This document shows positions 14,514 to 31,478 of a DNA stretch of 43,545 bases, piece after piece. A program made the position numbers and the translations under genes. Positions within the stretch are counted from its first letter, which is position 1, and every line of letters starts with the position of its first letter. The stretch is from Verrucomicrobiota bacterium (GTDB lineage Bacteria; Verrucomicrobiota; Verrucomicrobiia; Verrucomicrobiales; Akkermansiaceae), in the NCBI GenBank assembly GCA_030835305.1, contig JAURPJ010000085.1, positions 1-43,545 on the forward strand. Direction: 5' to 3'. Below the pieces are notes generated by a model. The model did not search any database. It saw nothing but the letters and a program-made list of their open reading frames with translations, and was not told the DNA's origin.

Positions 14514-14912
14514 ATGATTCCCAAGAGCCTCCGCCAAAATCCGCGATTCTGGATTGGCTGCCTCATTCTCTGGTTTACTCTCCTCAACCTGCTTTCCCAC
14601 GGAGACAAGTTCCATCCCCCCGGCACCTTTTTCTTTGACATTCCCCACTTTGATAAAGTCGTACACTTTGGCTATTTTTTTGGCGGGGGCGGTCTGCTCT
14701 CAGCTTCTCTTTTTTTCGCAAAAAAATCTTCGTGGCGAAGTCTCATCCTGACAGTAACGGTTTCTCTTTCCGTGGTCGGAATCTGGGACGAATTCCATCA
14801 GTCTTTTTTCGAAAACAGGACAGGCAACGACCCCGGTGACTGGCTTGCAGACACCCTCGGTGCATTTTGCGGGGCAACCGTCTTTGTTAGACTACACAAG
14901 CTGCTCTTGTAG
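14514..14912 (+). CDS. VanZ-like integral membrane protein
   Basis: This 132-residue membrane protein belongs to the VanZ-like family. Conserved features are DIPHFDKVVHFGYFFGGGG, then IWDEFHQSFFENRTGNDPGD, and WLADTLGAFCGA. About four hydrophobic segments are visible. The namesake VanZ gives low-level teicoplanin resistance, but most members are of unknown role and there is no glycopeptide-resistance cluster here. It lies between the toxin-antitoxin pair and the lipid operon, 63 bp from the next gene. Confidence 0.8.
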   Translation: MIPKSLRQNPRFWIGCLILWFTLLNLLSHGDKFHPPGTFFFDIPHFDKVVHFGYFFGGGGLLSASLFFAKKSSWRSLILTVTVSLSVVGIWDEFHQSFFENRTGNDPGDWLADTLGAFCGATVFVRLHKLLL

Positions 14913-14975: not shown

Positions 14976-15593
14976 ATGATTTCCTTTCTTACCCATCCCG
15001 TGACAACCTTTTTTGGTGGAGCAATTTTAGCTCTTATCGGGGTTGGCATTCTCCTCAACGCGAAAATGGAAAGCAATCAAACCGCGCAATTCGTGAAGGA
15101 TTATCGGGAAGCGATGGCCAAGGCCGGGGAGAATGGACCAACCACAGGATCGAGCAAGGAAGCTGCAGCCATCAAACGGTTCACTGATTTTCTTAAAAAC
15201 GTCGGCGACAAAACCTACATCAAGGAGCAAACCGCAAATTCCTATGCAGCCGACGCCTATCTGGATGACACCATTGTCACCCATTACGGCCCCGAAGAAA
15301 TCAGGAAATATTTCCTCCAAACGGCTGAGACAATGACCGCTTTTGAAGTGAATATCCTCGATTCATCGCGCTCCGGAGCAGACCACTACATTCGCTGGGA
15401 AATGATCTTTGCCGCTCCAAAACTGGCTAACGGCGAACCAATTCACTCGGTCGGAATCAGTCAGGTGAGATTCGACAAGGAGGGCAAGGTGGCATTTCAC
15501 CAGGATTTTTGGGATTCGGGGAGGCACATCTACGGGCAGATCCCGGTTGTTGGCGGGTTGATTGGAATTATTCGAAGTCGAATGAAGGAATAG
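14976..15593 (+). CDS. Membrane-anchored NTF2/SnoaL-like protein at the head of the lipid operon
   Basis: The protein is 205 residues. Residues about 9-28 form a transmembrane anchor (FLTHPVTTFFGGAILALIGVG region). The rest resembles the NTF2/SnoaL cone fold, with THYGPEEIRKYFLQTAETMT, SGADHYIRWEMIF and the C-terminal VRFDKEGKVAFHQDFWDSG. Related NTF2-like proteins are often encoded beside the amine-oxidase/DUF1365/Cfa lipid-modification genes, as here, but their role is not established. The desaturase gene starts 6 bp after its stop. A binding or accessory function is inferred only from context. Confidence 0.7.
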   Translation: MISFLTHPVTTFFGGAILALIGVGILLNAKMESNQTAQFVKDYREAMAKAGENGPTTGSSKEAAAIKRFTDFLKNVGDKTYIKEQTANSYAADAYLDDTIVTHYGPEEIRKYFLQTAETMTAFEVNILDSSRSGADHYIRWEMIFAAPKLANGEPIHSVGISQVRFDKEGKVAFHQDFWDSGRHIYGQIPVVGGLIGIIRSRMKE

Positions 15594-15599
15594 CTCATC

Positions 15600-16568
15600 A
15601 TGCCGGAACCGATTCACGAGAACCGCGGACCATTCTCGACCACCCTGCGGGTGATCGGTCAATGGCTTGATTCCGATTTCCGGAGAACCGAGGCTCCCGA
15701 TCCAGCCTCCCTCCCGGACCAGGTCAATTGGGAAAGGACACTCCCGTTCATCTTTCTTCACTTCGGGTGCCTGGCTGTATTTTGGGTTGGCTTTTCATGG
15801 GTCGCGGCGGGAGCTGCCATCTTTCTTTATCTCGTCCGTATGTTTGCCATCACGGGCTTCTACCACCGCTATTTTTCACACCGGACCTACAAGACATCGC
15901 GGGTGGTTCAATTCCTCTTCGCACTCCTCGGGAATAGTTCAATGCAACGCGGTCCGCTTTGGTGGGCGGCGACTCATCGTCACCATCACAAGCACTCCGA
16001 CGAAGAAGTCGATTCACACTCTCCCGTCCACCACGGTTTCGCGTGGTCGCACATCGGCTGGTTGACCTCGATGAAAAATTTTCCCACCGACTACCAAAGC
16101 ATCCCCGACCTCAGAAAGTTTCCCGAGCTAGTTTTCATCAATCGCTTCGATCAAATCGTCCCACTTGTTTACGGCTTGATCATGCTCGGTATCGGCGTTC
16201 TTCTGGAAACTTTCGCCCCTGGCTTGAATGTCACTATTGGGCAGTTCTTCGTGTGGACGTTTTTCATTAGCACGACAGTCCTTCTTCACGGAACTCTCTT
16301 CATCAACTCGCTGGCTCACGTTTGGGGAAAACGCCGGTATGAAACAAGCGATGACAGCCGGAATTCCTTTCTGCTATCCGTAATCACCCTGGGTGAAGGC
16401 TGGCACAATAATCACCATCGCTACCCTCACTCGGTGCGCCAAGGATTTCGATCATGGGAAATTGACTTCACCTATTACGGACTTAAAGCCCTTTCTTGGC
16501 TGGGACTGATCTGGGACCTCAAGCCCGTGCCCGAACGAATCAAAGAGGAGGGTCGAAATCACTCATGA
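15600..16568 (+). CDS. Acyl-CoA (delta-9 type) fatty acid desaturase
   Basis: This 322-residue membrane di-iron desaturase has all three His boxes: HRYFSH at 89-94, HRHHH at 126-130 and HNNHH at 269-273. Several hydrophobic segments surround them (about 50-85 and 185-235). The family introduces a cis double bond into acyl-CoA or lipid-bound acyl chains using O2 and an electron donor not encoded here. In this operon it could supply the double bond that the Cfa-type methyltransferases downstream act on. Its TGA overlaps the ATG of the flavoprotein gene (ATGA at 16565-16568), a sign of translational coupling. Confidence 0.9.
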   Translation: MPEPIHENRGPFSTTLRVIGQWLDSDFRRTEAPDPASLPDQVNWERTLPFIFLHFGCLAVFWVGFSWVAAGAAIFLYLVRMFAITGFYHRYFSHRTYKTSRVVQFLFALLGNSSMQRGPLWWAATHRHHHKHSDEEVDSHSPVHHGFAWSHIGWLTSMKNFPTDYQSIPDLRKFPELVFINRFDQIVPLVYGLIMLGIGVLLETFAPGLNVTIGQFFVWTFFISTTVLLHGTLFINSLAHVWGKRRYETSDDSRNSFLLSVITLGEGWHNNHHRYPHSVRQGFRSWEIDFTYYGLKALSWLGLIWDLKPVPERIKEEGRNHS

Positions 16569-17809
16569 GCGCCGGACGCGAAGAGATCGCAATTGTGGGA
16601 TCTGGAATCTCCGGGATGGCATGCGCTCACTTTCTCCACCCTCATCACGACATCATTCTCTTCGAAAAGGACGATCGGATCGGCGGACATTCGAACACAG
16701 TCAAGGCCGGCAACGACTCGCTTGATACCGGGTTTATGGTTTACAACGAGGTCACCTATCCCCTACTTACCAGGCTCTTTAAGGAGCTCGAAGTTGCCAC
16801 CAAACCGACCTCAATGTCGTTCAGTGTGCAACACACTTCCGATAGACTCGAGTTTAACGGAGGGAGTCTCAACCTGCTTTTTGGTCAGCGCAGGAATCTT
16901 CTGAGGCCACGATTTTGGAAAATGTTGATGCAGATCGATCGCTTCAACAAAGAAACTGTTGCCGAGCTACAGAAGAATGAGGAGACCAAGCTCACCCTCG
17001 CCGAATATGTCAAAGAGAGAGGCTATGGTCGGGATTTTTTGAAGTGGTATCTCTCTCCGATGGCGGCCGCGGTGTGGTCCAGCCCGCCAAAAAAAATCGA
17101 ACAGTTTCCCGCCATCACCTTGATGCGCTTTTGGCACAACCACGGATTCCTCGGATTGGATACCCAGCATCCATGGAGAACAGTGGTTGGCGGATCAAAG
17201 GAGTATGTCAAAAAACTCGTTGCTCCATTTCGTGACCGCATCACAACAGGAGACCCGGTGGTTGCAATCTCTCCGGACAATGAAATCATTCTAAACTCCG
17301 GACATCGGAAAAAATTTGATCGCATCATCAGCGCTGTCCACGGAGACCAGGCCCTCGACCTGTTGACCTCACCCACCGAAATTGAGGACGCAATCCTCTC
17401 GGCTTTTCCCTACCAGGCCAACAAGGCAGTTCTTCACACCGACCCACGATTCATGCCCCGCAACAAAAGATGCTGGGCTTCGTGGAATTATCGAGTTGAG
17501 GAAGGCAGACATTCCACGATTTACTGGATGAACAGCCTTCAGGGTGCCACAGCTCCAAAGAACTTTTTCGTCTCAATCAATCCCTCCCAAAAAATTGACG
17601 ACGCGCACGTCATCAAAGAGCTGGACTATGAGCACCCGCTTTTTGACCTCACGAGCATCGCAGCACAAAAGAATGTGCCTGAACTCAACGCTTCCAGAAC
17701 CGGAAGATACTTCTGCGGGGCCTGGCAACGATATGGCTTTCACGAAGACGGCCTGTGGTCAGCCTTTCGACTTTGCGAACAATTACTGGGGAGAAGTCCG
17801 TGGTCATGA
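16565..17809 (+). CDS. FAD-dependent amine-oxidase-like protein of the Cfa lipid operon
   Basis: The ATG at 16565 gives 414 residues starting MSAGREEIAIVGSGISGMAC. The dinucleotide-binding fold has G12-x-G14-x-x-G17, followed by the FAD motif FEKDDRIGGHSNTV. The C-terminal FAD-binding segment is YFCGAWQRYGFHEDGLWSAF. This subgroup (NAD(P)-binding/amine oxidase) is repeatedly found next to DUF1365 and cfa in bacteria. In plant cyclopropane fatty acid synthases a similar flavoprotein is fused to the Cfa domain, so a redox step on a fatty acyl substrate is likely. The gene overlaps by four bases with its neighbours on both sides. Confidence 0.85.
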   Translation: MSAGREEIAIVGSGISGMACAHFLHPHHDIILFEKDDRIGGHSNTVKAGNDSLDTGFMVYNEVTYPLLTRLFKELEVATKPTSMSFSVQHTSDRLEFNGGSLNLLFGQRRNLLRPRFWKMLMQIDRFNKETVAELQKNEETKLTLAEYVKERGYGRDFLKWYLSPMAAAVWSSPPKKIEQFPAITLMRFWHNHGFLGLDTQHPWRTVVGGSKEYVKKLVAPFRDRITTGDPVVAISPDNEIILNSGHRKKFDRIISAVHGDQALDLLTSPTEIEDAILSAFPYQANKAVLHTDPRFMPRNKRCWASWNYRVEEGRHSTIYWMNSLQGATAPKNFFVSINPSQKIDDAHVIKELDYEHPLFDLTSIAAQKNVPELNASRTGRYFCGAWQRYGFHEDGLWSAFRLCEQLLGRSPWS

Positions 17810-18588
17810 GCGCTTACCTCTACGAATGCAAAGTAATGCACCGCCGCCTTATGCCGGCGCAAAAACGTTTTGACTATCGCGTCTTCATGCTGAGCTTCGA
17901 CCTCGAAGAAGTCCCTTGGAATACGTTTCTCGGAATCAACCGGTTCAACCTCTTCAGTCTTAATAGCGAAGACCACGTTGACCTTGGCAAACCCGGCGGC
18001 ATTCGTCCCAACCTCATGGCATGGTTTGAGGAGCAGGGAATCGATTGCCCCAGCGATGCTCGCATTCAACTGGTCACCCTTCCCCGCGTTCTGGGCTACA
18101 CCTTTAATCCGGTTTCATTCTACTATGTTTGCGACAAAAAAAATACTCCCCTTTTTGCCGTTGCCGAGGTTTGTAATACCTACCACGAAATGAAGCTCTA
18201 CATAATCGACAATCGCACCGAGACGGGCTGGCGGCGGAAAGTTGAAAAAGGATTCTATGTCTCGCCATTCTCAAGCGTTTGCGACTTCTTCGACTTTAAT
18301 CTGGGGCTCCCTTCGGCTTCGTGGGATGTCACCATCAACAACTTTGATTCCAAGGGGCTCACCCTGACTTCTTCAATCCGCGGCACGGCCAAAGCTCTCA
18401 CCACCGGACGCCTCCTATTGTTTGGCTTTAAATACCCCCTTCTTTCGCTCAAGGTAATCGCCATGATTCACTGGCAGGCCTTGAAACTATGGCTTCGGAA
18501 AGTGCCCTACTCTCCAAAAGCCAAAAACAAGCACGCCCAAACTAATGTGCTTCGCCCCCATTCTTCACTGACTTCCAAAGATGAGTAA
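17806..18588 (+). CDS. DUF1365 protein of the Cfa lipid operon
   Basis: From the ATG at 17806 the protein is 260 residues. Family features are YLYECKVMHRRLMPAQKRFD at the start, then LPRVLGYTFNPVSFYYVCD, AEVCNTYHEMKLY and KGFYVSPFSSV. DUF1365 genes are associated with the flavoprotein and Cfa genes across many bacteria; no biochemical activity is firmly assigned. Its start overlaps the preceding stop (ATGA) and its end overlaps the cfa start by 8 bp, so expression should be coordinated and near-stoichiometric. Confidence 0.88.
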   Translation: MSAYLYECKVMHRRLMPAQKRFDYRVFMLSFDLEEVPWNTFLGINRFNLFSLNSEDHVDLGKPGGIRPNLMAWFEEQGIDCPSDARIQLVTLPRVLGYTFNPVSFYYVCDKKNTPLFAVAEVCNTYHEMKLYIIDNRTETGWRRKVEKGFYVSPFSSVCDFFDFNLGLPSASWDVTINNFDSKGLTLTSSIRGTAKALTTGRLLLFGFKYPLLSLKVIAMIHWQALKLWLRKVPYSPKAKNKHAQTNVLRPHSSLTSKDE

Positions 18589-19825
18589 TTCCAAACTCCA
18601 TTTCAAAAACGGCCTTTCCGAACGACTTGTCGTTGGATTACTGAATAAAATGCCCGACAGCCATCTCAAGATGACTTATGCCAACGGGGATTCACGTCAT
18701 TTTGGAAATCCCGAGGAACCGGTCAGCGCGGAAGTCACGATCAATGACGATGCCGAGTTCTTTAAACGCTGCGCCTATTATGGAAATGTCGGAATGGGCG
18801 AAGCTTACACCGATGGCATCTGGGATACCCCCGACATTCGCGCGGTGATTAGTTGGTTCGTTCTCAACATGCAAGCCCTCCAGGGGGCCGACACCTCGTC
18901 GGACAAACTCCCCGGCGTTGGTTTGCTCAAGGTTGTCAATTGGTTCCGCCACCTTCGCCGGGCCAACACCGTGGACAACAGCCGTCGGAATATCTCGGAG
19001 CACTATGACCTTGGTAACGAATTTTACTCCCTCTGGCTGGATGCCACCATGACCTATTCATGCGCAAAATTTGAACAAACCGACCAGGAATTCGAGGCAG
19101 CCCAGAATGCAAAGTACGATGCGCTCTGCCAGAAACTCAAACTCAAGTCAGGCGACCACGTCCTAGAAATCGGTTGTGGTTGGGGCGGATTCGGAACCTA
19201 TGCCGCAAAAACCTATGGCTGCAAAGTGACAGGTGTCACCATCTCCGAAGAGCAGGCCAAGTTCGCCCGTGAACGAGTGAAGCGAGAAGGCGTTGAAGAT
19301 CAATTCGAGGTCCTCGTCCAGGACTATCGCCATATCAAAGGGCAGTTCAATAAGATCGTTTCCATCGAGATGATCGAAGCGGTGGGCGACAAATTCCACG
19401 AATCTTTTTTTGCAAAGTGTCACGAGGTTTTAGCCCCTGATGGCATCCTCGCCCTCCAGATGATTACCGTACCCGATAACCGATATAAAAGTCTTACAAA
19501 AGGTGTCGATTGGATCCAGAAGGTGATATTCCCGGGCTCGCTTCTTCTCAGTGTGGGCCGGGTCAATGAGGTTCTCTTGAAAACAAGCGACCTTTTCCTG
19601 CACGACCTTGAGGATTTTGGCGCTTTCTATGTTCGCACCCTCCAAAACTGGCATAAGCGCTTCAACGCCGCGAAAGATTCACTGCACAAACTGGGCTTTG
19701 ATGCCCCCTTTATGAGGACTTGGAATTACTATCTCAAATACTGTGAGGCCGGCTTTGCGACACGAAATATTTCAGTCGTTCAGGCAATTTACACCAGGCC
19801 AAACAATCCCTCATTGATGGCGTGA
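18581..19825 (+). CDS. cfa: Cyclopropane-fatty-acyl-phospholipid synthase family methyltransferase (first of two)
   Basis: This 414-residue SAM-dependent enzyme has the N-terminal Cfa lipid-binding region and the family motif SEHYDLGNEFYSLWLDATMT at 139-158, followed by YSCA. The SAM site is VLEIGCGWGGFG at 194-205. Cfa enzymes add a methylene or methyl group from S-adenosylmethionine across the double bond of membrane phospholipid acyl chains. It sits in the middle of the operon after the desaturase, flavoprotein and DUF1365 genes. A cyclopropane, a mid-chain methyl or a furan product are all possible; sequence alone does not decide. Confidence 0.9.
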   Translation: MSNSKLHFKNGLSERLVVGLLNKMPDSHLKMTYANGDSRHFGNPEEPVSAEVTINDDAEFFKRCAYYGNVGMGEAYTDGIWDTPDIRAVISWFVLNMQALQGADTSSDKLPGVGLLKVVNWFRHLRRANTVDNSRRNISEHYDLGNEFYSLWLDATMTYSCAKFEQTDQEFEAAQNAKYDALCQKLKLKSGDHVLEIGCGWGGFGTYAAKTYGCKVTGVTISEEQAKFARERVKREGVEDQFEVLVQDYRHIKGQFNKIVSIEMIEAVGDKFHESFFAKCHEVLAPDGILALQMITVPDNRYKSLTKGVDWIQKVIFPGSLLLSVGRVNEVLLKTSDLFLHDLEDFGAFYVRTLQNWHKRFNAAKDSLHKLGFDAPFMRTWNYYLKYCEAGFATRNISVVQAIYTRPNNPSLMA

Positions 19826-20328
19826 ACGTCGAAGTGTCAGAAGCGGATCCCTGGTGGAAATGTTGGTTCATCAATCCGATCTTAAACCAACTCCGCCAGG
19901 GCATCAGTGCCGACAAACTGTCGTGGACCATCGCGCTCGGTTGCGCTTTTGGTATCTTTCCGGTGATGGGCACAACCTCTGTTGTCTGCCTCATTCCTGC
20001 CGCGATTTTCAAACTCAACCAACCCGTCATCCACGCCGTCCGGCTCGCTCTTTGGCCAGTACACCTCGCTCTGATTCTTCCCTTCATCAAAATCGGTCAG
20101 TGGTTCTTCGGGTCGGAACAGATCACCGGTTCGGTCCCCATCTTACTTAAAGAATTTTTCGAAAGCCCCGCTCGATTTTCGGAAAACTACTGGCTCGCTG
20201 CCTTGCAGGGGATCGCGGCTTGGTCGGTCGCCATCATTCCGCTCATTTTCATCGTCCGGGCAATCACGTTCCCTATCCTGAGAGCGACGGCTGCCAGGAT
20301 TGAACTGACTAAACAAGCACCAGCATGA
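19822..20328 (+). CDS. DUF2062 membrane protein
   Basis: GTG at 19822 overlaps the cfa stop (GTGA). The 168-residue protein matches DUF2062: SADKLSWTIALGCAFGIFPV, then TTSVVCLIPAAIFKLNQPVI, and WPVHLALILPFIKIGQWFFG. There are about three transmembrane segments, the last near 130-150. Function is unknown; DUF2062 proteins are small inner-membrane proteins often found beside lipid or glycan genes. Its place inside a coupled lipid-modification operon suggests a membrane or transport role. Confidence 0.8.
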   Translation: MNVEVSEADPWWKCWFINPILNQLRQGISADKLSWTIALGCAFGIFPVMGTTSVVCLIPAAIFKLNQPVIHAVRLALWPVHLALILPFIKIGQWFFGSEQITGSVPILLKEFFESPARFSENYWLAALQGIAAWSVAIIPLIFIVRAITFPILRATAARIELTKQAPA

Positions 20329-21107
20329 ATGACCTCACTCTCCTCGGAATCGTGGCCGCCCTCGTCGTCCTGGACTTTACAAGTGGATGGTGGTTCGGCG
20401 GTAAAATCAAAAACTACTCGTTGGTTGATGCAATGTGGGCCTTCTGGATCGGGCTTGCGGGAGTCATTTACTCCTTCTTTGGGACCGGCGACTTGGACAA
20501 GAGGATCGCAGCCGGATCGATGACGGCGATCTGGGGATTTCGACTGTCCTATTACTTGCAAAAGCGCATTCGCAAACATCACCCCGAGGAAGACTTACGC
20601 TATCAAAAACTTCGCGAAGTCTGGGAAGGGAGGGTTTCATCTGCCTTCTTTTGGTTTTTCCAAGCCCAGGCAATCTCAGTGCTACTTCTCGCTCTCCCCT
20701 ACTTTCTCATATCCCGGGATTCATCGCCCTGGGGCGTTTTCGAAACCATTGGTTTCACCATCGCCGTGATTGGGATTAGCGGAGAGATACTTGCGGACCA
20801 CCAGATGTCAGAATTCAAGTCCAGGGACACGCGGTCATCGTCAGTCTGTCGCGACGGACTGTGGAAATACTCCCGCCATCCCAATTACTTTTTTGAGATG
20901 GTAATCTGGATTGGAATCTACCTCTTCGCCTGCGGATCGGCCTGGGGATGGACCACCTTCTTCGCTCCCGCAACCGTCACCTTCCTTCTTCTCAAAGTGA
21001 CCGGTATTCCGCCCACCGAGGCATCCGCTGTCAAACGCAAGGGAGCCGCCTATCGAGAGTATCAACGCTCCACCAGCCCCTTCATCCCACTTCCACCAAA
21101 ATCATGA
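20325..21107 (+). CDS. DUF1295 (steroid 5-alpha-reductase-like) membrane protein
   Basis: The 260-residue polytopic protein has the DUF1295 signature, with DAMWAFWIGLAGVIY, the central SYYLQKRIRKHHPEEDLRYQ and the C-terminal CRDGLWKYSRHPNYFFEM. The RHPNYF segment is the conserved core shared with steroid 5-alpha reductases and isoprenylcysteine methyltransferases. NAD(P)H-dependent reduction of a lipid double bond is the usual inference. It overlaps DUF2062 and the second methyltransferase by four bases each. In this operon it could reduce an unsaturated intermediate made by methylation. Confidence 0.88.
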   Translation: MNDLTLLGIVAALVVLDFTSGWWFGGKIKNYSLVDAMWAFWIGLAGVIYSFFGTGDLDKRIAAGSMTAIWGFRLSYYLQKRIRKHHPEEDLRYQKLREVWEGRVSSAFFWFFQAQAISVLLLALPYFLISRDSSPWGVFETIGFTIAVIGISGEILADHQMSEFKSRDTRSSSVCRDGLWKYSRHPNYFFEMVIWIGIYLFACGSAWGWTTFFAPATVTFLLLKVTGIPPTEASAVKRKGAAYREYQRSTSPFIPLPPKS

Positions 21108-22144
21108 TCAATATCGACGACCTTCTCGCCAAGGACATCATTCCCGATGCGCTGATCCGGATCGGCATCCGCTCAAGGCTCAAGGATACTTTGAAGCCAT
21201 TTGAAAAGCTGGATTGCGAAGGCCGACAGGCGGCGCTGATGAGACACATAAGGGAACTCAAGGAGAGTCCGGTGGCAATCGCCACGGATGAAGCAAACGA
21301 GCAGCACTATGAATTACCAACCGCCTTTTTTCGCAAAGTGCTGGGTCCACACATGAAATACAGTTCGGGGTATTGGGATTCAGAGAACACTGACATTGAG
21401 ACCTCCGAAGCTCGCATGCTCAAGCTGAGCTGCGAACGGGCAGAACTGGAAAACGGGCATCGCATTCTAGAACTTGGGTGCGGATGGGGATCACTCACGC
21501 TCTGGATGGCCAAGAAATATCCGGATTCTGAGATTACTGCTGTTTCAAATTCGAGAACGCAGAAGGAATACATCTATTCACAAGCGGCAGAGCAAGGACT
21601 CACCAATATCGAAGTCAAAACGGTAAACATGATTTCTTACGAGGGAGAGGGAGAGAGCGTCTTCGATCGCGTGGTCTCAGTAGAAATGTTCGAGCACATG
21701 AAAAATTACGAAGAGCTACTCGACCGAATCTCACGATGGCTCAAACCAGAAGGAAAACTCTTCGTGCACATCTTCACCCATCGTGAATACGCCTATCACT
21801 ACGAGACCAAAGACGAGAGTGATTGGATGGCTCGCTACTTTTTCACGGGCGGACAGATGCCATCGGACGACCTCCTGCTGTATTTTCAAAATAAGCTTTC
21901 CATCGATGATCACTGGCAGGTCAACGGCACCCACTATCAAAAAACTTCGGAAGCCTGGCTGACGCGTATGGACGAAGCCAGCGACGAATTGAAACCACTT
22001 ATCGCTGAAACTTATGGCGAAGCGGAAGCGAAGAAATGGTGGGTTTGGTGGCGCTGCTTTTTCATGGCCTGCGCCGAACTCTGGGGCTTTCGAGGTGGCG
22101 ACGAGTGGATCGTTTCACACTACCGTTTCACCAACTCGAAGTAG
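21104..22144 (+). CDS. Second Cfa-like SAM-dependent methyltransferase
   Basis: ATG 21104 overlaps the DUF1295 stop (ATGA) and gives 346 residues. Family features are NEQHYELPTAFFRKVLGPHM at 65-84 followed by KYSSGYW, and the SAM site ILELGCGWGSL at 121-131. The C-terminus (WWVWWRCFFMACAELWGFRG) is typical of the branch that includes plant coclaurine-N-methyltransferase-like and bacterial operon-linked methyltransferases. It lacks the N-terminal lipid domain of true Cfa, so it is not a duplicate of the gene at 18581 but a different subfamily. The target may be lipid or another small molecule. It is the last gene of the run. Confidence 0.85.
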   Translation: MINIDDLLAKDIIPDALIRIGIRSRLKDTLKPFEKLDCEGRQAALMRHIRELKESPVAIATDEANEQHYELPTAFFRKVLGPHMKYSSGYWDSENTDIETSEARMLKLSCERAELENGHRILELGCGWGSLTLWMAKKYPDSEITAVSNSRTQKEYIYSQAAEQGLTNIEVKTVNMISYEGEGESVFDRVVSVEMFEHMKNYEELLDRISRWLKPEGKLFVHIFTHREYAYHYETKDESDWMARYFFTGGQMPSDDLLLYFQNKLSIDDHWQVNGTHYQKTSEAWLTRMDEASDELKPLIAETYGEAEAKKWWVWWRCFFMACAELWGFRGGDEWIVSHYRFTNSK

Positions 22145-27436: not shown

Positions 27437-27937
27437 CTAGCGCACCACCACATCGTCGTCGGTCCAGTGCTCCCTATCGGGACCTGCGGAACGGTATTCA
27501 AAACAAAGACCACTCAAACGGTGAAAAAAGATCGGAATCCCATTTCGATCCATCAATACTCCGTCGGACCTAATTAAGGGATGTTCCGCTGGCATCCAGG
27601 CAAGTTTTTCCGGGTTTGCTCCCTGCAGAAATCGGACAATCTCCGGATTCCCGGGTAAGTGGAAGGTATCGAAGTTTTTCATGAGCAACTGGCAATGAGT
27701 CACAACATCTCGAAGCGCTTCCAAATCTCGCTTCGTGTCTGCATTTTTCTCACCATATTCCTCAGTGAACGGATTCCCCGTGATAAACTTCAACTCATCT
27801 CTTTCAAAAGTCAGAGGAGCACTCTTCTCTTCCTCCCGAAAGCTCTCCTCTTTAACTGGGTACGGCTGATCGATCCCTTGGAAATAGAACCCGAGAAATA
27901 CCAGGACGATAGCGATCCCTACGCAAAAAGCCTTCAT
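27437..27937 (-). CDS. Small membrane-anchored protein of the DUF1800-DUF1501 operon
   Basis: The ATG at 27937 overlaps the DUF1501 stop (ATGA). The 166-residue protein has an N-terminal anchor (MKAFCVGIAIVLVFLGFYF) and a soluble part with DLEALRDVVTHCQLLMKNF, EIVRFLQGANPEKLAWMP and DRNGIPIFFHRLSG. The C-terminus is AGPDREHWTDDDVVV. The last segment recalls the C-terminus of GspG-type major pseudopilins (a GPD near the end), so it may share that calcium-binding corner, but no prepilin cleavage site is present. The position suggests a role with the two exported proteins upstream. The convergent toroid gene ends 18 bp away. Confidence 0.65.
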   Translation of the reverse strand: MKAFCVGIAIVLVFLGFYFQGIDQPYPVKEESFREEEKSAPLTFERDELKFITGNPFTEEYGEKNADTKRDLEALRDVVTHCQLLMKNFDTFHLPGNPEIVRFLQGANPEKLAWMPAEHPLIRSDGVLMDRNGIPIFFHRLSGLCFEYRSAGPDREHWTDDDVVVR

Positions 27938-29358
27938 TCGCACATTTTCATAAAGCCAAGAGGAGCACCATCTTCAACGACATCATGAAAGTTGGCCAGA
28001 TTGGGAAGCACCAAATCTCTCACATTACTTGGAGAAACGCCCATCCAGAGGGCCAAGTCGGCCACGTATTGATCCACAGAGATCGTGGGAATAAATCGTC
28101 CGCGTCCGGTATCGAGATCGTTACCAAGATCGAGTGAGGGATACTCACCAAAAAACCTTCCGCCATCGACACCTCCACCAACGACGAATTGGTGCCCACC
28201 CCAAGCATGGTCGGTTCCATTTCCGTTTGGCGTCAGGGTCCGACCAAAATCCGACGCAGTAAAGAGTGTCACTTGGTTCTCCACCTTCAAGTCGACCATG
28301 GCCTGATAAAACTGGCCGATAGCCTCACTCACCTGCCCTAGCATCGCCGGATGATCTTCCAACCCATTGTGATGATCCCACCCTCCAAGCTCGACAAAGA
28401 ATGTCTGTCGTTTTTTCGCCAGAGCCCCCCGGGCGGCAATCGTTTCTGCGACAGCTTTAAGTTGTGATGCCAGTCGATTCTCAGGGCTAAACTCAGTGCC
28501 TAACGTGCCTGTGGCCTCCAGAGCCGCCCGATATTCGGCACTGGCTGAAATCGCAGCTTTTTTGGTGGAAGCAAAAGCCTTTTCAAAGGCATTTTGGTAT
28601 TCAGCTTCCAAAATCGATTCCTGGGCTGCCTGCTTGTGTCGATTGACCCATCGATTCCAGAAGCGGATCTCAGGAACACTGGAAGCACTTCGAGAAAGGA
28701 CCGAGGTTGCACTCCCGCTTTGGAAAAGATTAATTCCGGCAAGAGACAAGTTCATCGAAACCTGGCTCTCGCCATTCAAGTCATTTACAAGTTCCGCCAA
28801 ACGTCCGCCCCAACCGCTTTGTGGTGAACGATTGGTGGGTAGACCAGAATGCCAGTGGAGCTGTTGGTCCGAGTGTGAATATAATCCCAACGGCAAATTT
28901 GCAGATTGGTTTTGAATCTCAAGCTTGGTGACAGGCTCGACAAGAGTTCCGACATTGTTAACAAAAGACGCCTTTCCTGAATCGAAAAGGGCCTTCAACT
29001 CGGGCATTTCCGCATTCAGACCCAGCGTCCGGCCATCCGGCGAGGGCAGCGGATTTCCTATTGGGGTGAAATCAGTTTCAGGGAGAGCGACATCACCCCG
29101 TGCTGCCACGTATTCAGGATAGCCTCGTGAAGCGTCGACTGGAGCCAACATATTAAAGGAGTCATTACCACCAGCGAGAAAAACACAAACCAATGCTTTG
29201 TAATCTTCCGCCCCTTCATTGTCCGCCGCCGCCAAAGATCCGGTAAGCCTCAAATTGATCAGCGAAGAAAGAAGTGAAGTGGATCCAACTGCCGAACAAC
29301 TCGCTTGCCCAAGGAAGCGTCGACGATTCACGACGCTATTTTGCTGATTATTTCTCAT
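27934..29358 (-). CDS. DUF1501 protein with a Tat signal
   Basis: I start this gene at ATG 29358, which forms a TGATG overlap with the DUF1800 stop; a second in-frame ATG at 29376 would add six residues. The 474-residue protein has a twin-arginine signal (NRRRFLGQASCSAVGSTSLL) and then the family core LVCVFLAGGNDSFNMLAP. Near the C-terminus are VTLFTASDFGRTLTPNGNGT and HAWGGHQFVVGG. DUF1501 proteins share the alkaline-phosphatase/sulfatase fold and are nearly always encoded with DUF1800 in Planctomycetes and Verrucomicrobiota. They are folded in the cytoplasm before export; the substrate is unknown. Confidence 0.92.
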   Translation of the reverse strand: MRNNQQNSVVNRRRFLGQASCSAVGSTSLLSSLINLRLTGSLAAADNEGAEDYKALVCVFLAGGNDSFNMLAPVDASRGYPEYVAARGDVALPETDFTPIGNPLPSPDGRTLGLNAEMPELKALFDSGKASFVNNVGTLVEPVTKLEIQNQSANLPLGLYSHSDQQLHWHSGLPTNRSPQSGWGGRLAELVNDLNGESQVSMNLSLAGINLFQSGSATSVLSRSASSVPEIRFWNRWVNRHKQAAQESILEAEYQNAFEKAFASTKKAAISASAEYRAALEATGTLGTEFSPENRLASQLKAVAETIAARGALAKKRQTFFVELGGWDHHNGLEDHPAMLGQVSEAIGQFYQAMVDLKVENQVTLFTASDFGRTLTPNGNGTDHAWGGHQFVVGGGVDGGRFFGEYPSLDLGNDLDTGRGRFIPTISVDQYVADLALWMGVSPSNVRDLVLPNLANFHDVVEDGAPLGFMKMCE

Positions 29359-31478
29359 CAATTTAAAACGATGCATTCCATTGATTGACTCACAAGGTAG
29401 ATTGCAGCACGCACTCTCTCAAGTTCAGTGATCTCGCTTTGCACGGCTGTCAAAATCGCGCCTCTTGTTTCGGCTCTCAACCTTCCCCCAGTCATCAGAA
29501 GATCAACCCTGTCAATCAATGCACCTGGGTCGTCGGCAAGCGCAAGTTCCTGGCTAAAATCGAAGCTTCCAAACACGTCTGATTCCGCGACCGTGGCTGC
29601 AAAGCGCGAGTCCGACCTCAGCATCTGTGACAAGGAAGCAAGCTGAAGTTCAGGACTCACCATTCTTGCCACACGAAACTCCCCCTCCGGAGAAAAGTCG
29701 GGGCGATAGAAATTGAAAACACTTGGGGCAAGCATAGGAAACTGACCAAAATCATCGTTCAGCAACGGTTGATTGGTCGCATATTTCCCATCGTCCGAGA
29801 CAAGATCGAACGCCCTCGAAAGGCTGGCATAACGAATAATTGGTTCGCGAACTTTTCCACGAAAACGACCACCCGAGCCATCGTTGAGGACCTCGGGATC
29901 TAACAAAATCGCCTTCATCACCTCTCCAAGGTCATAAGGTTCACCACTGGAATCGTCTCCCCAAACTCTGGAAACCCGAGACAAATATTCCGGAGATGGG
30001 TTTGAACTTGTAAAACGTTGGATCAGGAGCCGACTCAAAAACGGAGGGAGCGAGGGGTGCGATACAAGAGCATCGAGGGTGGCTTGCACTTCCTCCTCAC
30101 CGGTTTGCGAACCATCCAACTCGACACCGTTAATGATGGACTTGGGACCAGGTTCATGTTCTTCGTCCCAAACCTTCATCTTATAAAAATAATCGTTTCC
30201 CCGGGCCACATTGTAAAAGCTCGTCGCCGTCCGGCCATTATTGGTCGTTGAGTGGCTCATCCCTGTAAAAACCTTTGCCATCTCGGTGATCGTGTCGTTG
30301 TCGTAGGTCGGAATAAAATTACCATCCTCGTCGAGCTTTCGCGATCCGTCCGGATTCAACTCCCACAAGCCAATCGTAAAAAGCTGCATAATCTCACGCG
30401 CAAAATTTTCATCAGGGAAGCGCGTTGGGTTAACTGGGTCATCCGATTTGCGATTGTTCAAGTGAGACAAGTAAAACCCCATTACAGGGCTGTAGGTCAC
30501 GTTCTCAAGGATGTCACGATATGACCCAAACGCTCGCGCCGTGAAGATATCGTAATAGCGAGCCTGGGTGATGTAGTTATCACCGATAACACTGCCTCCC
30601 TTGAAGTTCACGACAAGGATTTGGCTCAGCGCATAAGCAATTCGTTGCCTCAACTGGTCAGGTGCAATATTAGCAGATCGCCACCAACCATCACGCCCTC
30701 TGGAACTATTAATACTTAGGGCGTTCCTCGAAATGGAGGTCTGCAAGCGCGTTGTTGGAATTGTCGTTTGATTATCCATCCACCCGGTCAGTCCCATCGC
30801 CATCACGTCTGCAATCGACTCGTCGGTTGGTCCAAAGGTTGCTCTCAACAAAAACTGGGCCGCCTCCTTCTCGTCCGGAAGCCTTCGAGCAAGCTGCCTA
30901 CCGTCCGTCAAAAGAGCACCTTCTTCCGCCTCAAGGGCGCGAAGGGCTGTTATAAAGTCACTTTCACCAGAGTCATCCATCCCAGCAACACTTTCATCGC
31001 TCGTCCCAAGTAGAATCTCCTCCCACGCATTCAACCCGTCTCCGTCCATGTCGACATCGGCGACTGCGACACGAAAAACACCACCGGCGGAAGACTCCAA
31101 ACTGACTGTTTCAACAGCAGCTACACTCGAAGGAAGGACCCAGGCCGCTTCAGTCCATCCATCCAAATTCGGGTCCCAGCGTTCAAGTCGATAGATTTTC
31201 CCGGGCTCGGCTGACCACGAGAATTGAACCCCGGTCTCATCCACAACCGGATTCTCAAGGAAGAAAAGACTGGTTGGATCTTGCGGATTAGTCCCCGCAA
31301 CCCCTTCCGCATGGTTTGAAATCCCGTCACCATCAGAATCAAAGTCATTTGCCACAATCCCTGTATACTGCAACTCCCACAATTCGGACACCCCGTTGCC
31401 ATTGAAATCAATCGCGCCAAAGGCAAACGGAGAAGATGCCAAAACGGCCGCTGCGGTTGGATTTAGTGGGAATTTCAT
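29358..31478 (-). CDS. DUF1800 protein with N-terminal calcium-type repeats
   Basis: The 706-residue protein has a signal peptide (MKFPLNPTAAAVLASSPFAF). Asp-rich thrombospondin-type-3-like repeats follow (NDFDSDGDGISNHAEGVAGT and VDMDGDGLNAWEEILLGTSD). The DUF1800 domain starts near residue 205 with AAQFLLRATFGPTDESIADV. Later conserved parts are NFAREIMQLFTIGLWELNPD and FTGMSHSTTN. It is the first gene of a three-gene coupled operon (DUF1800, DUF1501, small membrane protein). The pair is thought to be surface or periplasmic; no enzymatic role is proven. The start faces carA across 158 bp. Confidence 0.92.
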   Translation of the reverse strand: MKFPLNPTAAAVLASSPFAFGAIDFNGNGVSELWELQYTGIVANDFDSDGDGISNHAEGVAGTNPQDPTSLFFLENPVVDETGVQFSWSAEPGKIYRLERWDPNLDGWTEAAWVLPSSVAAVETVSLESSAGGVFRVAVADVDMDGDGLNAWEEILLGTSDESVAGMDDSGESDFITALRALEAEEGALLTDGRQLARRLPDEKEAAQFLLRATFGPTDESIADVMAMGLTGWMDNQTTIPTTRLQTSISRNALSINSSRGRDGWWRSANIAPDQLRQRIAYALSQILVVNFKGGSVIGDNYITQARYYDIFTARAFGSYRDILENVTYSPVMGFYLSHLNNRKSDDPVNPTRFPDENFAREIMQLFTIGLWELNPDGSRKLDEDGNFIPTYDNDTITEMAKVFTGMSHSTTNNGRTATSFYNVARGNDYFYKMKVWDEEHEPGPKSIINGVELDGSQTGEEEVQATLDALVSHPSLPPFLSRLLIQRFTSSNPSPEYLSRVSRVWGDDSSGEPYDLGEVMKAILLDPEVLNDGSGGRFRGKVREPIIRYASLSRAFDLVSDDGKYATNQPLLNDDFGQFPMLAPSVFNFYRPDFSPEGEFRVARMVSPELQLASLSQMLRSDSRFAATVAESDVFGSFDFSQELALADDPGALIDRVDLLMTGGRLRAETRGAILTAVQSEITELERVRAAIYLVSQSMECIVLN

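Follow-up and report, generated by a model that had tools for sequence, protein, structure and literature searches.

Which lipid does a bacterium make with a run of eight closely packed genes that includes a fatty acid desaturase and two different Cfa-type methyltransferases? This question is raised by positions 14976 to 22144 of contig JAURPJ010000085.1 (assembly GCA_030835305.1), from a Verrucomicrobiota bacterium of the family Akkermansiaceae; the whole stretch analyzed, 43,545 nucleotides (nt) in length, is termed the window herein. The original prediction proposed a dedicated operon that desaturates, methylates, and oxidizes lipids, pointed tentatively to related enzymes implicated in methylated or furan fatty acids of Rhodobacter, and held that the product was unknown and could be a novel membrane lipid. 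We find that the operon is real and conserved, that it represents, in a compact and complete form, a pathway type already known, and that its new, testable element is the DUF1295 gene. Judged from its protein families and by analogy with characterized systems, the operon is very probably a self-contained set for methylated (monomethyl or dimethyl) furan fatty acids. Furan fatty acids occur in fish, plants, and microbes. They are antioxidant lipids, and it is only lately that the bacterial enzymes making them were elucidated (PMC7380195).

The open reading frame (ORF) calls place all eight genes on the plus strand where six of the seven junctions overlap and the seventh is a gap of 6 nt. The proteins match, above curated cut-offs, the Pfam families SnoaL_2, FA_desaturase, Amino_oxidase, DUF1365, CMAS, DUF2062, DUF1295, and CMAS. 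The run opens with a small SnoaL/NTF2-like protein with a hydrophobic N-terminal stretch (14976 to 15593; PF12680, 34 bits), and the 6-nt gap separates its gene from that of a membrane fatty acid desaturase of the stearoyl-CoA desaturase type (15600 to 16568; PF00487, 71.9 bits). Then come a UfaD-like flavoprotein (16565 to 17809; PF01593, 74.2 bits, and NAD_binding_8, 53.1 bits, both above cut-off), a UfaO-like DUF1365 protein (17806 to 18588; PF07103, 221.5 bits), a UfaM-like Cfa-type S-adenosylmethionine (SAM) methyltransferase, termed Cfa1 here (18581 to 19825; PF02353, 296.4 bits), a DUF2062 membrane protein with a GTG start (19822 to 20328; PF09835, 29.1 bits against a cut-off of 27.4), a DUF1295 integral membrane protein (20325 to 21107; PF06966, 205.2 bits, and PF02544, 34.7 bits), and a FufM-like second SAM methyltransferase, Cfa2 (21104 to 22144; PF02353, 143.5 bits), whose start is an ATG within a longer frame of 398 amino acids. 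From the desaturase/flavoprotein junction to the DUF1295/Cfa2 junction, the overlaps are 4, 4, 8, 4, 4, and 4 nt. The gene run as first described, headed by an NTF2-like protein and with short overlaps at all junctions from 15600 onward (8 nt between DUF1365 and cfa), is therefore present in every frame, and Pfam backs each of its gene names.

In Rhodobacter sphaeroides, UfaM (RSP2144) converts cis-vaccenate in phospholipids to 11Me-12t-18:1, the flavin adenine dinucleotide (FAD) protein UfaD (RSP1091) turns this into a conjugated methyl-diene, and the DUF1365 protein UfaO (RSP1090) closes the furan with O2, while FufM (RPA0924) of Rhodopseudomonas palustris, where the other genes are RPA2569-2571, methylates the ring a second time (PMC7380195). 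RPA0923, the neighbor of fufM, was also deleted in that work. PMC10940516 gives the UniProt accessions Q3J4I7 for UfaM and Q6NBA4 for FufM. Judged by protein family, the window encodes putative enzymes of these four types, for a first methylation, desaturation, ring closure with O2, and a further methylation. Whereas ufaM in Rhodobacter and fufM in Rhodopseudomonas have distant locus numbers, all four genes lie in one operon here, which additionally carries the desaturase, DUF1295, and DUF2062. On the basis of family and gene context, UfaD, UfaO, UfaM, and FufM would be represented here by the flavoprotein, the DUF1365 protein, Cfa1, and Cfa2, respectively. Counterparts of these types are also described for Arabidopsis, namely AtUFAMD1 (like UfaM plus UfaD), AtUFAO1 (DUF1365), and AtFUFM1/LIME1 (PMC10940516); these are, however, plant proteins, differently fused and located on lipid droplets, and the accessible part of that report contains no mention of DUF1295.

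The proposed route has five steps. The desaturase would introduce a cis double bond in an acyl chain of the membrane; Cfa1, acting as UfaM, would use SAM to methylate the chain at this bond, leaving a shifted trans double bond; the flavoprotein, acting as UfaD, would introduce a second double bond to give the conjugated methyl-diene; the DUF1365 protein, acting as UfaO, would close the furan ring with O2; and Cfa2, acting as FufM, would attach the second ring methyl. For the proteins of Rhodobacter and Rhodopseudomonas, published work has demonstrated steps two to five, and the window proteins are predicted to act likewise. The furan product would be expected to serve as a membrane antioxidant. 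Because a step has been published for a counterpart of every core gene, we expect a mono- or dimethyl furan acid, a known lipid class, and a novel membrane lipid has become less likely than first supposed; the dedicated operon and the suggested Rhodobacter link are both borne out by the published furan work (PMC7380195).

To assess conservation of the gene set, 97 relatives were searched for DUF1365. A match was obtained in 43, and 19 of these matches came from the genus, for which 27 genomes were searched (the window's own included). Regions were fetched for 40 of the 42 other matches (genomes G086 and G088 were left out), giving 41 loci with the window, and losses at contig edges were scored as absent. 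Among the 19 genus loci, the flavoprotein, DUF1365, and Cfa1 genes were present in all 19, DUF2062 in 18, the desaturase and DUF1295 in 17 each, the SnoaL-like gene in 16, and Cfa2 in 14. In the 4 family loci, all genes were present in all 4, except for DUF2062 (3 of 4). The 18 loci of the order kept the flavoprotein and DUF1365 in 18, Cfa1 in 17, and DUF1295 and Cfa2 in 16 each; less well kept were the desaturase (11), DUF2062 (10), and the SnoaL-like gene (2). The flavoprotein gene stands beside DUF1365 in 41/41 loci, and the operon core is conserved at the genus, family, and order levels. All eight genes occur together in 13 of the 19 genus loci, and 5 of the remaining 6 hit a contig edge on the missing side.

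The junctions recur as well. With starts picked by similarity and pairs more than 400 nt apart dropped, the genus and family loci showed a 4-nt overlap between flavoprotein and DUF1365 in 20/23 pairs, an 8- or 4-nt overlap between DUF1365 and Cfa1 in 19/23, and 4-nt overlaps between DUF2062 and DUF1295 in 19/20 and between DUF1295 and Cfa2 in 16/18. Because the same junctions are found in 19 genus and 4 family loci, the coupling of the genes is not a matter of chance. All eight genes had ratios of nonsynonymous to synonymous substitution rates (dN/dS) of 0.08 to 0.33 against the nearest relative (locus L035). The neighborhood survey, which had been set beforehand as a possible refutation, favors DUF1295 and the second methyltransferase as conserved partners; it does so less strongly for the desaturase and DUF2062, which the order retains in 11/18 and 10/18 loci.

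The best solved relative of the desaturase is acyl-CoA desaturase 1 (4ymk; E, 1e-34), and the histidine boxes HRYFSH, HRHHH, and HNNHH can be read in its translation. We infer that it supplies, on the spot, the cis double bond used by UfaM. The relationship to SCD1 suggests delta-9 specificity; in that case, the ring would be shifted by two carbons toward the carboxyl end relative to Rhodobacter, and the products would be, in the shorthand of PMC7380195 applied here, 7M5/7D5 from 16:1 and 7M7/7D7 from 18:1. The assembly of the window encodes three PF00487 desaturases, two of them outside the operon. For the putative ring former, the DUF1365 model (predicted local distance difference test [pLDDT], 92.5) shows a beta-barrel with C-terminal helices. 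Its fold matches are weak (best Z, 7.0; best Foldseek E, 5.7e-4 to 3bdr), with scores in the range typical of models without a clear match, and therefore no cofactor is proposed. The model weakly resembles the spirocyclase OlmO, Ycf58, and nitrobindin (Z of ∼7), a barrel likeness which may hint at lipid holding by a ring former without a known cofactor.

Cfa1 is closest among solved structures to the cyclopropane synthase 6bqc (E, 1.1e-59). Could it be an ordinary cyclopropane synthase, with the flavoprotein and the DUF1365 protein acting on cyclopropane acids? We regard this as very improbable. The ligands of the bicarbonate site (PMC3132707, PMC11387697) were compared, in E. coli Cfa numbering, in the 77 proteins of more than 340 amino acids among 80 collected Cfa1 proteins and in 120 Cfa2 proteins. 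Cfa1 carries Glu239, Gln for His266, Ile268, and Tyr317 in 77/77, with a variable position 139 (19 Cys, 45 Ser, and 13 Ala), and Cfa2 carries Glu, His, Phe (268), and Tyr in 120/120. In favor of an ordinary cyclopropane synthase, the window Cfa1 retains four residues of the E. coli site (Cys, Glu, Ile, and Tyr), and cotton cyclopropane synthases likewise have Gln in the place of His266 (PMC3132707). Against this stand the absence of His266 from all 77 Cfa1 proteins (the window protein has Glu, Gln, and Tyr at the classical ligands Glu239/His266/Tyr317 and so departs from the classical set), the furan role of UfaD and UfaO demonstrated in two bacteria, and the fusion of UfaO (DUF1365) with UfaM (Cfa1) in a single frame at four loci elsewhere in the phylum: L170 (7901 to 9904), L172 (3881 to 5842), L175 (9170 to 12376), and L178 (11237 to 13849). 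These fusions, which pair different domains than the plant protein resembling UfaM plus UfaD, come from 20 further phylum regions chosen partly for long frames or for genomes lacking FufM, and they serve as examples and not as frequencies.

The flavoprotein bears on another alternative, that saturated mid-chain methyl acids of the tuberculostearic type are made, with Cfa1 methylating and the flavoprotein or DUF1295 reducing. The flavoprotein TmsA/BfaA is of the FAD-binding oxidoreductase type, whereas that of the window is of the amine-oxidase type (PF01593), and DUF1365 would be left without a role. Although the 10-methylstearate pathway also consists of a methylase plus a flavoprotein (PMC5660069) and the fold of DUF1295 is reductase-like, we consider this alternative barely credible. 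An ordinary cyclopropane operon and the 10-methylstearate pathway were both rejected.

Cfa1 and Cfa2 are the two strong matches to CMAS in the assembly (297.7 and 143.9 bits), where two other proteins score 39.4 and 20.5 bits. For Cfa2, the closest solved structure is coclaurine N-methyltransferase 6gkv (E, 1.6e-76), and cyclopropane synthase 6bqc matches at an E of 4.2e-31. AtFUFM1 is, we presume, also of the coclaurine N-methyltransferase type. The Arabidopsis gene AT4G33110 was named AtFUFM1 for 38% identity to FufM (PMC10940516). Cfa1 and Cfa2 share 28% identity over 225 residues, a divergence much like that between RPA0924 and UfaM (26%; PMC7380195), and Cfa2 is 46% and 45% identical to its Afipia and Tardiphaga relatives. 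The genome thus has the pattern by which FufM is recognized, a second SAM methylase distant from UfaM alongside UfaM-, UfaD-, and UfaO-type genes, and we infer that Cfa2 is a FufM-like second methylase of the furan ring.

Co-occurrence was then considered across the phylum, in a sample of 288 genomes with cut-offs of E ≤ 1e-30 for FufM-like Cfa2, ≤ 1e-10 for DUF1365, and ≤ 1e-5 for PF06966. FufM-like Cfa2 was detected in 53 genomes, DUF1365 in 64, and DUF1295 in 62. All 53 genomes with FufM also had DUF1365, and 51 had DUF1295 (the exceptions being G144 and G180); DUF1295 was found in 58/64 genomes with DUF1365 versus 4/224 others, 3 of these 4 being weak matches. Fisher P values for these associations were below 1e-40, uncorrected for relatedness. 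DUF1295 immediately preceded FufM, in the same orientation, in 38/51 genomes and lay elsewhere in 13, in 8 of these on another contig. A tie of DUF1295 to FufM alone was rejected, as DUF1295 is kept in 7 of the 11 genomes with DUF1365 but without FufM. In the five of these seven whose regions were read, DUF1295 was in the same stretch as DUF1365 (∼14 kilobases [kb] off in L172); in the other two, not read as regions, it was on another contig (G201) or more than 1 megabase away (G214). Where FufM is absent in L171 and L182, desaturase, DUF1295, and Cfa1 still stand in a run.

A scan of named genomes with Mesorhizobium FufM as the query covered the best 80 of 504 related stretches, by title mostly from Alphaproteobacteria and including relatives in Afipia, Tardiphaga, and Rhodoplanes. 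DUF1295 was immediately upstream of FufM in 77/80 loci, with a 4-nt overlap in 53. The remaining three, by title two Caulobacter and one Novosphingobium (L150, L154, and L155), had no DUF1295 beside FufM. UfaD and UfaO homologues were both within the fetched flanks in 61/80 loci, and Cfa1 was in only 35/80. These counts bear on the possibility that only a monomethyl furan acid is made and that Cfa2 has another methyl acceptor, such as an amine head group; its nearest solved structures, plant alkaloid N-methyltransferases, might suggest this. This seems unlikely to us in view of the invariable company of DUF1365 in the 53 phylum genomes and of the joint presence of UfaD and UfaO around FufM in the named genomes; moreover, among proteins of published function, the one nearest to Cfa2 in type and setting is the ring C-methylase FufM.

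Six annotated plasmid regions were opened, from 40 records listed of 291 matched. DUF1295 next to FufM, together with DUF1365 and the flavoprotein, was found in 6/6, and a UfaM-type Cfa in 5/6, with none in the Shinella stretch. A sigma factor and an anti-sigma factor accompany four of the clusters (ChrR-type in Rhizobium, Shinella, and Mesorhizobium, of an unnamed type in Burkholderia), a two-component system that of Acinetobacter, and a TetR regulator that of Cupriavidus. Only the Acinetobacter cluster includes a desaturase. This plasmid, of Acinetobacter sp. WY4 (L075), has the order and orientation desaturase-FAD-DUF1365-Cfa-DUF1295-FufM as in the window, with 26 to 51% protein identity; unlike the window, it has no DUF2062, carries a lipocalin gene at the head, and continues downstream with the two-component system, a chalcone-isomerase-like gene, and a SnoaL-like gene. 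The cluster (L075, 2894 to 9020) lies near photolyase, lipocalin, and two-component system genes. Since the plasmid is typed as mobilizable, the pathway may be able to move.

What, then, is the role of DUF1295? Its faithful association with the pathway makes it a probable missing enzyme of furan fatty acid metabolism, and its near-obligate partnership is new relative to the literature searched. Searches of that literature returned no paper joining DUF1295/PF06966 with furan fatty acid or UfaD and none joining steroid 5-alpha-reductase with DUF1295; for combinations of DUF1295, DUF1365, DUF2062, DUF3833, and singlet oxygen, only a Chlamydomonas paper contains DUF1295, and furan fatty acid with Verrucomicrobi- gave, by title, only gut, diet, or animal studies. 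The window's assembly encodes one DUF1295 protein. Its model, built from 35 sequences (pLDDT, 96.4), matched sterol delta-14 reductase 4quv (Z, 15.4; 4.0 Å over 238 residues), the steroid 5-alpha-reductases 7c83 (Z, 15.2; 4.0 Å over 202 residues) and 7bw1 (Z, 13.3; 4.7 Å over 205 residues), three ICMT methyltransferases (Z of 12.3, 11.9, and 11.8), and AtTam46 (Z, 10.7), with the next match at 6.7; the seven top matches are all members of the sterol/steroid-reductase superfamily or AtTam46. Mostly helical models can reach Z values of 13 to 14 without kinship, which gives weight to the above-cut-off match of the window protein to PF02544 (Steroid_dh), and Foldseek alone was weak (best E, 5.5e-3). 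PF02544 was found in 34 of 35 DUF1295 members (PEMT in 17 and ICMT in 9), and a profile search of PDB sequences returned AtTam46, SRD5A2, PbSRD5A, and ICMT at E values of 9e-5 to 8e-3. The kinship with the reductase superfamily is thus supported by sequence; the fold is shared with 4QUV and 7C83/7BW1 over nearly the whole protein, with an identity of just 13 to 14%. ICMT methyltransferases share this superfamily; a reductase is the more likely reading and ICMT-type methyl transfer the less likely one. DUF1295 would thus be a regular further pathway member with a reductase-like fold.

Singlet oxygen turns furans into ene-diones, and 1,4-diketones can cyclize to furans. One tentative idea, which we consider rather doubtful, is that DUF1295 might be a membrane NADPH reductase acting on the ene-dione left after the furan quenches singlet oxygen, either for detoxification or for return to the furan by 1,4-diketone cyclization, which would recycle the antioxidant lipid in the membrane with an enzyme common to bacteria and algae. 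If this were true, synthesis and regeneration of the furan lipid would be packed in one operon. The singlet-oxygen response of Chlamydomonas via SAK1 induces CFA1, CFA2, DUF1365, DUF1295, and DUF2177 genes; Table 9 of the report names the CFA2 locus coclaurine N-methyltransferase (PMC4067076). This set is a regulon of scattered nuclear genes, unlike the operon, and the accessible part of that paper reports no furan acid; the authors of PMC8491031 state that they are looking for such a modification in Chlamydomonas. DUF2177 is also present in the Rhizobium, Shinella, and Mesorhizobium plasmid clusters.

Several observations weigh against assigning the operon to furan fatty acids. The proposed orthology draws on protein family, gene context, and similarity to relatives, for example, those in Afipia and Tardiphaga. 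The change from His266 to Gln was dropped as a diagnostic of UfaM; because cotton cyclopropane synthases carry the same change (PMC3132707), Gln at 266 separates the Cfa1 and Cfa2 groups and is no proof of product. E. coli expressing Halomonas UfaM made cyclic acids besides the methyl olefin, though its own cfa was present. The genes do not always stay together: DUF1365 is less than 10 kb from FufM in 38/53 phylum genomes and not in the other 15, and among the 56 untruncated named-genome loci (at least 16.8 kb), UfaD and UfaO occur in 47 and UfaD, UfaO, and UfaM in only 29, suggesting that UfaM often lies further off or elsewhere. In one genus locus (L051), Cfa2/FufM is absent although the contig continues. 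A sigmaE-ChrR (ECF11) regulon in this genome was rejected, as no ChrR-type cupin (PF12973) was found at an E of ≤ 0.001 in the assembly, which is 97% complete in 133 contigs.

The DUF2062 and SnoaL-like proteins are putative auxiliaries. In Rhodobacter, deletion of RSP1087, RSP1088, or RSP1089 left the fatty acids unchanged, so that not every operon neighbor is needed (PMC7380195). A lipocalin-like gene takes the place of the SnoaL-like gene at the operon head in L063, L064, and L074, which suggests that these small ligand-binding proteins are interchangeable. A gene for a VanZ-like membrane protein (14514 to 14912, plus strand; PF04892, 35.7 bits) precedes the SnoaL-like gene; because a homologue is found directly upstream of that gene in 12/19 genus loci (window included), the transcription unit may begin with it as a putative ninth gene. 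Upstream of the VanZ-like gene is a BrnT toxin/CopG-type antitoxin pair (PF04365 and PF12441; 13873 to 14485), and a DUF1501/DUF1800 pair on the minus strand (27937 to 31478) is unrelated to the operon. A sigma-70 promoter scan gave no signal above chance (2 found versus 5.8 expected from shuffling), comparison of two proteins with PHROGs yielded nothing informative, and among the NCBIfam matches listed for the eight operon proteins (the best 25 of 32 and the best 25 of 30 for the two Cfa proteins) no family reached its cut-off.

If a single compact operon covers every published step and also supplies the olefin, it could serve as a transferable test system for furan acids with one or two methyl groups, whose ring might occupy a position different from that in Rhodobacter. 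A missing step is indicated by the strict association of DUF1295 with the pathway in several bacterial groups and by its part in an algal singlet-oxygen response, and the function of the DUF1295 family thereby becomes directly testable.

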